A stretch of DNA of 58,379 nucleotides from an uncultured cyanobacterium. GTDB taxonomy: Bacteria; Cyanobacteriota; Cyanobacteriia; Thermostichales; Thermostichaceae. The notes below the pieces were generated by a model. That model saw nothing but the letters and a program-made list of their open reading frames with translations. It searched no databases and was not told the DNA's origin. Within the stretch, counting starts at the first letter, position 1. Every line of letters starts with the position of its first letter. Location of the stretch: assembly GCA_937944885.1 (NCBI GenBank), contig CALFBB010000028.1, forward strand, positions 1 through 58,379, read 5' to 3'. This document shows, one piece after another, positions 30,082 to 33,958 of the stretch. The position numbers and the translations under genes are program-made.

Positions 30082-31707
30082 ATGGATAGCGGTTCTTCTG
30101 TAACCAGCCCAATTCGGTTGCAGGTGATGGCCAATGCCCTAGCTGGGATCGCTGAAGAGATGGGGGCGCGCCTGATCCGAGGTTCCTATTCGGCCAACAT
30201 CAAGGAGCGGCGGGATTGCTCCACAGCTTTGTTTGATGCCCAGGGATCCTGTATTGCCCAGGCAGCTCATATCCCGGTGCATTTGGGGGCGCTCTCGGAG
30301 GCGGTAGGGGCTGTTATCGCAACCGGTCCACAACCAGGGGATGTGTTTGTCCTCAATGATCCCTATCAAGGGGGATCCCATCTGCCGGATCTGACGGTGG
30401 TAACGGCCATTCCTGCTCTTGAGGATCCCACTGTCATTTGTGCCTATGCGGTCAATCGCGCCCATCACGCCGATATAGGTGGGATGCGTCCTGGGTCTAT
30501 GCCTGCCGATTCGACGGAGATTTGGCAGGAGGGATTGGTGATCCCACCGGTACGCTTGGCCCGCCTACAGGTATCTGGAGCCTTGGATTGGAACGAGGCG
30601 CTGCTGCAGTTGATCTTGGCCAATGTGCGCAATGCCGAGCAGCGCCGTGGTGATTTGCAAGCGCAAGTGGGGGCGAATGCCATCGGGTTACGCCGCTTCC
30701 GGGAGCTACTGGCCCAGTTTGGTGAGGAGGAGGCCTGGCGGTTAATTGCTGCGGTCATCGACTACAGCCGCCGGCGCATGCAGGCTCAAATTCGCACTCT
30801 ACCCGATGGGGTCTACAGAGCAGCCGATCAACTAGAGGGCTACGGGGATCCCCCAGAAGCGATTTGGATTCACGCTCAAGTTGAGGTGAAAGGAGACCGC
30901 CTGCGGGTGGATTTTACAGGTACGGATGCGGCCCACGCAGGGAACTTGAATGCCCCCTTGGCGGTGACCCGCTCGGCGGTGCTGTTTGCTCTGCGCTGCT
31001 TGCTGGATCCCACTGCCCCGAGCAATAGCGGGCTGGAGGAGCCTATTGAGATTGAGGCTCCCCTAGGCTGCTTGGTGAATGCCCAATTTCCCGCAGCAGT
31101 GGTAGCCGGCAACGTAGAAACTTCCCAGCGGATTGCCGATCTGATTCTGCACGCCTTGGCCCCAGTAGCCGGCTCCCTGAGTATTGCCCAAGGTCAGGGC
31201 ACCATGAACAACTGCGTGCTCGGTAACCGCCACTTCACTTACTACGAAACCCTGGGGGGAGGACAAGGTGCCAGTTCTCACCGGCCTGGCCCAGATGGGA
31301 TCCATGTCGGCATGAGCAACACCCTCAATACCCCGATTGAAGCTCTGGAGCTGGAGTATCCCTTGCAGGTGTTGTGCTACGAGCTCCGCCCAGATTCTGG
31401 TGGCCATGGCCGACAGCGGGGCGGCTGGGGATTGATTCGCTCTTTACGGGTTTTGCAAGATTGCACCCTGTCTTTACTCACCGACCGACGCTACCATGCC
31501 CCACAGGGAGAAGCCGGTGGAGGTTCTGGACAGGTGGGGATCAACCGGCTAAATGGGGATCCCTTGCCGAGCAAAATCAGCCGACCTCTGAAGGCCGGGG
31601 ATGTGGTTACCCTGTACACCCCTGGAGGGGGCGCTTGGGGAGCGGTAGAGCCGATCCCCGATGCGGATGCTAACGGGATCCCTGACTCAGACAGGGGAGG
31701 TGGGTGA
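30082..31707 (+). CDS. Hydantoinase B/oxoprolinase-type protein (HyuB)
   Basis: HyuB proteins are ATP-dependent hydantoinase or acetone-carboxylase-like subunits, normally paired with HyuA. I start at ATG 30082 (MDSGSSVTSPIRLQVMANAL), 541 residues; the frame is open from GTG 29989. Family motifs are ARLIRGSYSANIKERRDCST, AAHIPVHLGALS, GDVFVLNDPYQGGSHLPDLT, NRAHHADIGGMRPGSMP and NAPLAVTRSAV. HyuA is not beside it, so the partner must be elsewhere or the protein works alone. The last 38 bp overlap the antiparallel end of the thioredoxin gene. Confidence 0.9.
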   Translation: MDSGSSVTSPIRLQVMANALAGIAEEMGARLIRGSYSANIKERRDCSTALFDAQGSCIAQAAHIPVHLGALSEAVGAVIATGPQPGDVFVLNDPYQGGSHLPDLTVVTAIPALEDPTVICAYAVNRAHHADIGGMRPGSMPADSTEIWQEGLVIPPVRLARLQVSGALDWNEALLQLILANVRNAEQRRGDLQAQVGANAIGLRRFRELLAQFGEEEAWRLIAAVIDYSRRRMQAQIRTLPDGVYRAADQLEGYGDPPEAIWIHAQVEVKGDRLRVDFTGTDAAHAGNLNAPLAVTRSAVLFALRCLLDPTAPSNSGLEEPIEIEAPLGCLVNAQFPAAVVAGNVETSQRIADLILHALAPVAGSLSIAQGQGTMNNCVLGNRHFTYYETLGGGQGASSHRPGPDGIHVGMSNTLNTPIEALELEYPLQVLCYELRPDSGGHGRQRGGWGLIRSLRVLQDCTLSLLTDRRYHAPQGEAGGGSGQVGINRLNGDPLPSKISRPLKAGDVVTLYTPGGGAWGAVEPIPDADANGIPDSDRGGG

Positions 31708-32056
31708 GGAACAACTGCTCACAGCGGCGCAGCACCTCATCCCGGCTGGCGAAGTGTTCTAACCTTTGCACCTCTTGACCTTTCTCAAACAAGATCAAGG
31801 TCGGTAAAGACTGCACCCGATAGCGACGGGAAAGCAAGAAATTCTCATCGACATTCACCCGCACCACCTTCACCGCCCCCTCCCATTCGGCAGCAAGACG
31901 CTCGGTAATCGGCTGAATGAATCGACATAACCCGCACCAAGGGGCGCTAAAATCCACCAAAACCAACCCGGTACTTGTCAAAAGTTCTTGATTAAAGGTA
32001 TCCAGTGCGACTTGCAAGATCGCCACTCCCAAACTAAAGAAGTTCTTTGGGATCAT
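31670..32056 (-). CDS. Thioredoxin-like protein with WCGLC active site
   Basis: Start ATG 32056 (MIPKNFFSLG) lies directly after the stop of the upstream membrane-protein gene, giving 128 residues; a TTG at 32068 would overlap that gene. The fold is thioredoxin: LVLVDFSAPWCGLCRFIQPI with WCGLC in place of the canonical WCGPC, then VKVVRVNVDENFLLSRRYRV and the cis-Pro segment QSLPTLILFEKG. Replacing Pro by Leu usually alters redox potential. It should reduce protein disulfides in the cytoplasm. The 3' end overlaps the convergent hyuB gene by 38 bp. Confidence 0.9.
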   Translation of the reverse strand: MIPKNFFSLGVAILQVALDTFNQELLTSTGLVLVDFSAPWCGLCRFIQPITERLAAEWEGAVKVVRVNVDENFLLSRRYRVQSLPTLILFEKGQEVQRLEHFASRDEVLRRCEQLFLTHLPCLSQGSR

Positions 32057-32057
32057 G

Positions 32058-32798
32058 CTACCAGGCAACTCGGCTGGCTGCAGACACCATTTGTGTATGG
32101 AAGGCGTAAAGAATCAATACAAAGCTGAACACCCCCAAGTAGGCCCAACGGAGAAATTCTCGCAGGCGCAGCTGCTGTCGCTTTTGCAGAATCGCCAAAC
32201 CGGGGATCACGGAGGTGCGGGCCTTTAACTCCCGGAAGGCTTGACCGTATTTGCGCTCTAGGCGGTGATCCCCATGCCAAACCGCAAACAGGTGATAGGC
32301 AATTAATCCTAGAGAAGTCACCACCATAAAACTGGAGCCAATCCAGAGGGAATGGGCCACACACCAAATCACTTGGCCCACCATTTGCGGGTGGCGGGTG
32401 ATGCGAATAATCCCTGTCTCATACAGGTGAATTTCCGGCCTTTGGATGGCAGCAATTTCCAGTAAATTAAAGGTGGCCGGATACAAAAAGAAAAAAGAGA
32501 GGGCCGATAGAAATACAACCGTGCTGTGGATCCCGGGGACTGCCTGGAGATTCCAAAGGCGGATCCCGTCGTAGCGATGGTTAAAAAAGTAGATTAACAG
32601 CAGCAGCGCTAAATTGATACTCACCAAAGCAAAGAACACTCGGTACAGGTGGGCTCCTATCCTGGCTTCTCCCCAAGGACGCAAATAAGCCAATCCACTG
32701 TGGGCGCAGGCAAACCCCAGGATTAGAGCTAGCATCGTCCAATGGGATCCATAGGCGGTTAACCCCTCGAGAAGATTGCTAGATAGAGTGAACTGCAT
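32058..32798 (-). CDS. NnrU-family membrane protein, candidate 15-cis-zeta-carotene isomerase (Z-ISO)
   Basis: The 246-residue protein has about six or seven hydrophobic segments. It resembles NnrU/Z-ISO, a haem-dependent membrane family that in plants isomerises 15-cis-zeta-carotene. The HSGLAYLRPWGEARIGAHLY block at residues 33-52 with RVFFALVS matches Z-ISO well, and ITRHPQMVGQVIWCVAHSL near 135 and WHGDHRLERKYGQAFREL near 190 contribute candidate His ligands. Some cyanobacterial homologues have been linked to carotenoid isomerisation, as I remember it; function here is inferred. It is immediately followed by the thioredoxin gene, a coupled pair. Confidence 0.75.
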   Translation of the reverse strand: MQFTLSSNLLEGLTAYGSHWTMLALILGFACAHSGLAYLRPWGEARIGAHLYRVFFALVSINLALLLLIYFFNHRYDGIRLWNLQAVPGIHSTVVFLSALSFFFLYPATFNLLEIAAIQRPEIHLYETGIIRITRHPQMVGQVIWCVAHSLWIGSSFMVVTSLGLIAYHLFAVWHGDHRLERKYGQAFRELKARTSVIPGLAILQKRQQLRLREFLRWAYLGVFSFVLILYAFHTQMVSAASRVAW

Positions 32799-32864
32799 GG
32801 GTAGTTTGCTCCTCTTCCGCCACCGACTGCCTTATGCTTAAAGATAAGTTACATTGGGCTTCCT

Positions 32865-33266
32865 ATGTTTAAAACCCTTTTCCTGCGCTTCCTTGGCCTG
32901 CTTCTATCTATCACTCTCCTGCTTGGCCTCATGATCCCAGAGGTTCAGGCAGCCCGTCTCACCGGCAAGTATTACGAAGACAGCATGACCATGATCCAAA
33001 CTCTGCGTACTGTTCTTTCTGAAGGGGATCCTGCGATGAACCCGGAAGAGGCTCGCGCCGAGGCTATGGAAGCCATCCAGGAGTTTGCCGGGCGCTATCA
33101 TGGCCAACACTATGACAAGCTGCAGTCTTTTACCACTCTGCGCACCGTCTTCAATACCTTGGCCTCTCAGTACCGCATGTCCAATCGTCCCCTCAAGCCG
33201 GAGCAGATGGAGCGGGTCTTGATGCAGCTGGATCGGGCAGAAGTTGCCCTGCGGCGGGAAGGCTAA
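32865..33266 (+). CDS. psb27: Photosystem II assembly factor Psb27, without lipobox cysteine
   Basis: Psb27 binds CP43 at the lumenal side of PSII intermediates and prevents premature Mn-cluster assembly. The 133-residue protein has a signal peptide MFKTLFLRFLGLLLSITLLL ending EVQAA, then LTGKYYEDSMTMIQTLRTVL and a four-helix bundle with FAGRYHG and LASQYRMSNRPLKPEQMERV. Cyanobacterial Psb27 usually carries a lipobox with Cys after the leader and is lipid-anchored; here no Cys is present, so it should be a soluble lumenal protein as in plants. It is divergent from the NnrU gene, 66 bp apart. Confidence 0.85.
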   Translation: MFKTLFLRFLGLLLSITLLLGLMIPEVQAARLTGKYYEDSMTMIQTLRTVLSEGDPAMNPEEARAEAMEAIQEFAGRYHGQHYDKLQSFTTLRTVFNTLASQYRMSNRPLKPEQMERVLMQLDRAEVALRREG

Positions 33267-33451
33267 ACCAGCATCCGATCCCGATCACAGACAAGCTACC
33301 CTTCCATTTTCTAGACTGAATCCCAATCAAACTGAAGGGTCTCACAAGCTTCTGACCGGCTCCTCAGAACCCTCTCTGAGCCAAAATTGGAAACCAAGCA
33401 GGTCAGGCAGTTTGTTAGGGATCCCTCAGCCTAGAGAGTTGGGAGATTGCT

Positions 33452-33958
33452 ATGGGCAAGATGCAAGGGATAGTTCTTTCGGCCATGTTGGCGGTTGGGA
33501 TCCCAGCAACCCTCTTGATTCAAACGCAACCCTTCAGGGTTCAGGCCCAGACAGCAAGGATCACCTCTGAAAGGGAAGCAGGAGGACCTTTTTGGGCTCC
33601 GGATGGTCTAGCAATCCGGGGTTACGACCCAGTGGCGTACTTTATCGATGCTCAACCGGTTCAGGGTTCTGCTGCGCACGAATGGGGGTGGGGTGGAGTC
33701 ACTTGGCGGTTTGCCAATGCTGACAACCTGGAGCGGTTTCGCAACAACCCGGAGCGATTTGCCCCCCAATACGGCGGATTTTGTGCTTGGGCGGTGGCCC
33801 ATAACTATCTTTACCCGGTGGATCCCTTTGCTTGGCGGATTGTGGAGAGCAAACTTTACTTGAATGCCAACCGGCGGGTGCAGCGCAACTGGGAACGAGA
33901 TATTCCGGAATTGATCAAAAAAGCTGACCTGAACTGGCCCAAACTGAGAGCCCAGTAG
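33452..33958 (+). CDS. Exported YHS-domain protein
   Basis: The 168-residue protein has an N-terminal signal (MGKMQGIVLSAMLAVGIPAT, cleaved near VQAQT) and a YHS domain: AIRGYDPVAYFIDAQPVQGS, GVTWRFANADNLERFRNNPE, RFAPQYGGFCAWAVAHNYLY, then AWRIVESKLYLNANRRVQRN. The YHS family is often linked to metal binding or trafficking; the single Cys in GGFCAW is the conserved one. Its substrate is unknown. It lies 185 bp after psb27 with no gene between. Confidence 0.85.
   Translation: MGKMQGIVLSAMLAVGIPATLLIQTQPFRVQAQTARITSEREAGGPFWAPDGLAIRGYDPVAYFIDAQPVQGSAAHEWGWGGVTWRFANADNLERFRNNPERFAPQYGGFCAWAVAHNYLYPVDPFAWRIVESKLYLNANRRVQRNWERDIPELIKKADLNWPKLRAQ

Follow-up and report, generated by a model that had tools for sequence, protein, structure and literature searches.

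The closest described relatives of the protein analyzed here are the Psb27 lipoproteins of Thermosynechococcus (structures 7nhp and 2y6x) and Synechocystis (2kmf) and the Arabidopsis homologue Psb27-H1 (5x56). The family itself is well known, as is the absence of a lipid from its plant homologues (PMC5895690, in the part of the text available). The accessible portions of two further papers describe the lipoproteins of photosystem II (PSII) as ones that "seem to be conserved in cyanobacteria," and the same authors call the role of the lipid on Psb27, CyanoQ, CyanoP, and Ycf48 unclear (PMC8038367, PMC9458691); the available text of PMC5895690 has "in most cyanobacteria," citing Fagerlund and Eaton-Rye 2011. 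No statement on loss of the Psb27 lipobox in cyanobacteria was found in the literature searched, although Fagerlund and Eaton-Rye 2011 may list exceptions. Relative to that literature, the lineage-wide loss of the Psb27 lipobox described below, its recurrence, and its pattern with CyanoQ and Ycf48 are new; CyanoQ without a lipobox in a few cyanobacteria (PMC4180030) and nonlipidated Ycf48 in some (PMC8038367) have already been published, going by the portions of these papers at hand.

The window, a stretch of 58,379 nucleotides of cyanobacterial DNA from the assembly G000, contains an intact psb27 open reading frame that begins with ATG. The gene, its parts, and its neighbors are arranged as follows:

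32865..33266, plus strand: psb27 gene, 133 codons, zero cysteines; open reading frame, profile, and structure-sequence matches.
32865..32951, plus strand: putative Sec-type leader, residues 1–29, with K3, R8, a hydrophobic core, and a P-E-V-Q-A end; predicted cleavage after V27-Q28-A29, before A30.
32952..33263, plus strand: mature Psb27, A30–G133, predicted four-helix bundle (AlphaFold2 model, Foldseek).
32802..32864, plus strand: in-frame stretch from TAG to ATG upstream of psb27, without ATG, GTG, or TTG.
32058–32798, minus strand: NnrU-type membrane protein, divergent, upstream of psb27.
31670–32068, minus strand: thioredoxin-like protein beyond the NnrU gene, with a WCGLC motif.
33452–33958, plus strand: YHS-domain protein with its own leader, downstream of psb27.

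Two profiles identify the product as Psb27, Pfam PF13326 at 35.9 bits (cut-off 25) and NCBIfam TIGR03044 at 136.7 bits (cut-off 117.35), and its best solved relative by sequence is 7nhp, "Photosystem II lipoprotein Psb27" (E 1.3e-12; the matches to 7nhp, 2y6x, and 2kmf range from there to 8.6e-11). The TIGR03044 cut-off is passed by six of the nine genomes of the window's order, with G006, G007, and G008 below it. The Pfam score is low beside the 74–99 bits of the 29 top-listed genomes, and some function of the protein may therefore have shifted. An AlphaFold2 model of middling confidence (pLDDT 77.7, pTM 0.64) places a helix at residues 3–22, a poorly determined segment at 23–28, and bundle helices within 36–132. 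At that level of confidence the model has the four-helix bundle of Psb27, and its best Foldseek matches are all Psb27 (2kmf, 2y6x, and 5x56; three at E 0.001 or better), with TM scores, normalized to the query, of 0.67–0.71 for 7nhp, 2y6x, and 2kmf. Ten alignment columns, G34 to R117, are invariant between the window protein and 28 others, which suggests that function has been kept.

Within this shared family and fold, the window protein differs from the cyanobacterial lipoproteins in having no lipobox, no cysteine, an end to its leader that resembles a signal peptidase I (SPase I) site, and a mature tail before the L-T-G motif of only about two residues; its identity to 21 aligned Psb27 sequences from outside its family is 27–36%, a strong divergence. 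Arabidopsis Psb27-H1 has the same four-helix bundle, at 26–27% identity over the structural match. Plant Psb27 is likewise no lipoprotein, and the N-terminal extension of Psb27-H1 is likewise very short, two residues in the structure (available text of PMC5895690). On present evidence, the lack of a lipid common to the plant and window proteins is convergent and does not point to close kinship.

A lipobox is defined here as [LVI][ASTVI][GAS]C at the leader end, after the accessible text of PMC8038367 and PMC9458691. The sequence-only reading had held that the lipidation cysteine is missing, and the count over the whole protein is indeed zero; the window protein is a Psb27, yet by this definition no PSII lipoprotein. 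Its leader, MFKTLFLRFLGLLLSITLLLGLMIPEVQA, combines basic residues at K3 and R8 with a hydrophobic core (Kyte-Doolittle mean of up to 2.67 over 12 residues, starting at residue 9) and a V/A pair at −3/−1, and has no twin-arginine motif. The leader end had been described as AQA/EVQAA, which needs a slight correction: E-V-Q-A-A, SPase-I-like, is present in the window, but the literal AQA occurs only in six relatives (G001–G005 and G007). An A/V-Q-A end is kept in seven of the eight family members in the alignment, and G005 has one cysteine early in its hydrophobic core, outside a lipobox context. In the survey described below, 14 of the 30 distinct leaders without a lipobox have a strict A-x-A ahead of the mature domain, as against 8 of the 99 distinct ones with a lipobox (Fisher p 7.6e-6, which is no real probability since the rows are related); the window leader, being V-x-A, falls outside the strict form, as do 16 of the 30.

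An alternate start that would add a lipobox was looked for upstream of 32865, and the frame is free of ATG, GTG, and TTG from the TAG at 32802 up to the psb27 start. The sole upstream cysteine codon in frame, TGC at 32835, has no start codon 5′ of it; the rare starts ATT and ATA sit 3′ of it, and its cysteine would precede the hydrophobic core. A lipobox hidden behind an alternate start is ruled out, as the stretch 32802–32864 holds no usable start. A second Psb27, the other place where a lipobox might have been kept, was searched for as well, and the assembly (95.26% complete, 62 contigs) returned a single match.

The same leader type runs through the window's family (Thermostichaceae-like, f1), where Psb27 is without a lipobox in all eight genomes, so that no sequencing accident is involved; in the sister family of the same order (G008), Psb27 keeps the lipobox VSGC. 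Among 157 surveyed genomes with intact Psb27, 32 genomes in five families lack the lipobox, 124 have it, and one, G300, is ambiguous, with LGSC inside the core and A-E-A later. By family, the lipobox-less genomes are 8 of 8 in f1, 17 of 35 in f3 (which also holds G300), 1 of 1 in f11, 2 of 2 in f24, and 4 of 6 in f34. The published phrase "conserved in cyanobacteria" fails for Psb27 in these 32 genomes. The motif rule as applied by script had given 38 of 157 as lipobox-less and had scored G300 as lipobox; on checking by eye, G207, G294, G115, and G199 (anchor motif misplaced) and G028 (NLGC) and G118 (LYGC), with a well-placed cysteine in an unusual lipobox, were moved to the lipobox class. 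Stop-containing, pseudogene-like matches in three genomes (G175, G209, and G292) and a weak second match in G149 were dropped before counting. Those three genomes belong to one genus (2.8–3.1 Mb), their Psb27 remnants have several stops, and stops occur also in CyanoQ of G175, which suggests decay of photosynthesis genes; in G084 (3.8 Mb single contig, 99% complete), neither Psb27 nor CyanoQ was found.

In the Pseudanabaenaceae-like order to which f24 belongs, 34 of 38 genomes have Psb27, of which 30 are without a cysteine near the site, two have a cysteine outside a lipobox, and two (G327 and G323) have a lipobox. Among the best 80 of 337 confirmed named GTDB loci, a biased part, ten lack the lipobox: four from Prochlorococcus, two from Pseudanabaenaceae, one each from Leptolyngbyaceae and Lyngbya, and two uncultured or unplaced; a fifth Prochlorococcus locus, L298, carries L-T-G-C. 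Leaders of f3 genomes of 1.6–1.9 Mb resemble those of the named Prochlorococcus loci. The lipobox-less Psb27 of the Prochlorococcus type, of most of the Pseudanabaenaceae-like order, and of some f34 members share the state of the window protein and its SPase-I-like end, but have separate origins on the RpoB tree. Most Pseudanabaenaceae-like Psb27 differ from the window protein by an extra ..TKE..NAG.. stretch, kept between leader and domain (L422–L455, for example L451). None of nine genomes of the Gloeobacterales or Gloeobacter-like order has a Psb27 match at E 0.01, in agreement with the absence of Psb27 from Gloeobacter violaceus given in the available text of PMC5895690.

Changes of state were counted on a tree of RpoB from 66 genomes, built by a quick search under LG+G4, with 23 of its 63 inner branches open, and rooted on G020, which has no Psb27; of 70 genomes asked, G011, G016, and G144 (in pieces) and G159 (no match) were left out. 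Parsimony requires at least eight changes, six of them forced by starred, well-supported branches; G020 and the ambiguous G300 were unscored, and the count is still eight with G300 taken as lipobox-less. A tree built from mature Psb27 itself (104 columns, with many of its forks unresolved and a long-branch warning) was excluded from the counting. Both states occur in one genus, where G173 has L-F-G-C and G213 has no lipobox, and in f34, f3, and f11 the lipobox-less members clearly lie within lipobox-bearing groups. Judged from leader sequences placed on this tree, lipobox-less Psb27 is a recurrent state, probably reached mostly by loss.

At the base of the tree, the direction is open to the opposite reading, in which Psb27 started out soluble and acquired its lipobox later, on one or more occasions. 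The lowest two branches with Psb27 on the G020-rooted tree (f24, and f1 with f2) are mostly lipobox-less, 30 of the 34 sequences in f24's order have no cysteine near the site, and plain parsimony gives the same score to an ancestral lipobox with losses in f24 and f1 as to a lipobox-less ancestor, which requires that G008 and the remaining lineages gained one. A primitive unlipidated state is nevertheless unlikely, because the loss of a single cysteine is presumably easier than the gain of a four-residue lipobox in the right place, because lipoboxes are carried by G008 and by two members of f24's order, G327 and G323, and because of the nesting in f34, f3, and f11. Loss being favored on these grounds, the lipobox would have disappeared on the branch to the window's family after the split from its lipobox-keeping sister. 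The missing cysteine had been thought to bear on the early evolution of PSII assembly; with VSGC in the sister, no Psb27 in the Gloeobacterales genomes, and recurrence in unrelated families including the Prochlorococcus type, that suggestion is not supported in its original form, and the bearing is weaker than had been hoped. The alignment with Gloeobacter proposed along with it has no Psb27 gene to draw on.

Psb27 is not alone among the lumenal PSII factors of this lineage. In the window's family the lipobox is absent from CyanoQ in 8 of 8 genomes and from Ycf48 in 6 of 6 checked, and is present in CyanoP in 6 of 6 checked (I-S-A-C in G000); in the sister G008, CyanoQ and Ycf48 are without a lipobox and Psb27 and CyanoP have one. 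Psb27 thus seems to have been the last of the three to lose its anchor. Some CyanoQ and Ycf48 leaders of the family and sister have a cysteine elsewhere, beside the start or in the core, outside a lipobox. The Ycf48 leaders of the family and sister (L223, L217, L219, L232, L238, L239, and L230) run into the mature protein as ..LLLMAAR/G.P.MR..PW.., with no lipobox and no evident A-x-A; these Ycf48 proteins may be tied by an uncut leader.

Both Lgt and LspA were found in every one of the 19 genomes queried, among them G000, and the missing lipobox is therefore a property of the psb27 gene and not of the cell; together with the CyanoP lipobox, their presence means that the lipidation machinery has at least one PSII-related substrate. 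Three of the four lumenal factors (Psb27, CyanoQ, and Ycf48) would bypass this machinery in the window's family. A similar pattern is seen in the f24 genomes G030 and G306, with Psb27 and Ycf48 lacking the lipobox and CyanoP carrying it. In f34, Psb27 is the one factor of those examined that lost the lipobox: G138, G147, G179, and G213 keep cysteine lipoboxes in CyanoQ and Ycf48, and the first three also in CyanoP, G213 having no CyanoP match. In G173, CyanoP is split in two, with a TAG; the close relatives G173 and G213, which differ in the Psb27 lipobox, differ here too. CyanoQ leaders of G017, G026, G028, G030, and G306 are incomplete at their ends and were not used. A tree-corrected test of the Psb27 lipobox against the Ycf48 lipobox gave p 1 (five pairs, nearly all without difference). 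It can be proposed, tentatively, that nearly the whole set of lumenal PSII assembly lipoproteins has left the membrane in this lineage, with only CyanoP keeping its lipobox. If so, PSII assembly here would be independent of a network of lipid-tethered factors at biogenesis zones, such tethering being a role that has been proposed in print for these lipids, and the lineage would work like chloroplasts, by convergence.

For Psb27 itself, a simple model would hold that the window protein is a soluble lumenal four-helix bundle, exported by Sec and cut by SPase I, whose lipobox was lost in the lineage; the combined evidence makes this model likely. Sec would export the precursor and SPase I would most likely cut it after V-Q-A; as there is no cysteine, neither lipidation by Lgt nor cleavage by LspA would take place. 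The mature protein would then be free in the lumen and would find PSII assembly intermediates, presumably docking at CP43, through its protein surface alone, by analogy with the plant homologues. The loss would belong to a broader pattern in the lineage, whose CyanoQ and Ycf48 are also without a lipobox and whose CyanoP has one. A soluble Psb27, as in plants, is the most likely inference.

Results from Synechocystis indicate that such a factor does not necessarily work without its lipid: in the accessible text of PMC5033237, CyanoQ lacking its cysteine dropped to 17% with its leader retained, and CyanoQ given the PsbO leader was undetected. Lineages without the lipobox must, on the proposed model, have met such a problem otherwise, by acquiring a new cleavage site, by docking more tightly, or by depending less on a tether. 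The same experiment raises the alternative that the leader of the window Psb27 stays uncut and its hydrophobic N terminus holds the protein at the membrane, a peptide anchor replacing the lipid anchor. CyanoQ-C22S, with its leader kept, entered the detergent phase (PMC5033237, same portion), a former signal peptide can act as an anchor according to the text available of PMC9458691, and the long core and predicted helix of the window leader would suit such a role. The A/V-Q-A kept at −3/−1 in seven of eight family members and the higher frequency of strict A-x-A among leaders without a lipobox are both unexpected for an anchor, however, and make a retained leader quite improbable.

Loss of the Psb27 anchor might also have followed the loss of CyanoQ, which shares the Psb27 site on PSII: with no competitor, no tether would be needed. 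The lineages listed as lacking CyanoQ in PMC4180030, in the part available (Prochlorococcus, two JA strains, and Gloeobacter, in which CyanoQ went undetected), looked like those without lipidated Psb27. In f3, CyanoQ is absent over cut-off from 8 of 16 genomes asked; seven of these eight have no Psb27 lipobox, the eighth being the ambiguous G300, and all eight genomes with CyanoQ have one. Yet six genomes (G012, G014, G015, G021, G023, and G163) keep the Psb27 lipobox without CyanoQ, lipobox-less genomes of f1, f24, f11, and f34 do possess CyanoQ, and in the tree-corrected comparison of six pairs, 1.0 changed the same way, 1.2 the opposite way, and 3.8 showed no difference (p 1), which leaves this explanation very little probability. 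As a general rule for anchor loss it is ruled out by that p value and by CyanoQ in 8 of 8 family genomes.

These family CyanoQ matches (TIGR03042; G000:C43:29921-30301; loci L195–L202) contrast with PMC4180030, as far as its text was available, and the family genomes seem to include the two strains reported there as lacking CyanoQ. Against the cut-off of 106.9 bits, G001, G003, G004, and G005 lie over and G000, G002, G006, and G007 under, with scores of 104.6 bits or less in three of the eight genomes.

An artefact, with a lipobox concealed because the start is misplaced, the frame is shifted, or a second gene is missing, is conceivable for a draft genome in 62 contigs but is scarcely credible, given the lack of an upstream start and the same leader type in eight of eight family genomes, including two single-contig ones (G001 and G004), each with one Psb27 match.

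More generally, species with a lipobox-less Psb27 are natural experiments on the purpose of its anchor. Close pairs that differ in the trait, such as G173 and G213 within one genus and G008 beside the Thermostichaceae-like family, offer a direct way to test what the anchor does.

A scan of 32700–33500 for promoters and terminators returned 0 and 0. The NnrU, thioredoxin, and YHS genes are absent within 1.5 kb on each side of psb27 in three loci of other genera or the sister family, and the neighborhood gives no sign of a special psb27 operon. The usual thioredoxin active site is WCGPC, as compared with WCGLC in the window. Within the genus, the NnrU and thioredoxin genes keep their place beside psb27 in all six loci and the YHS gene in five, the exception being L033 of G001.
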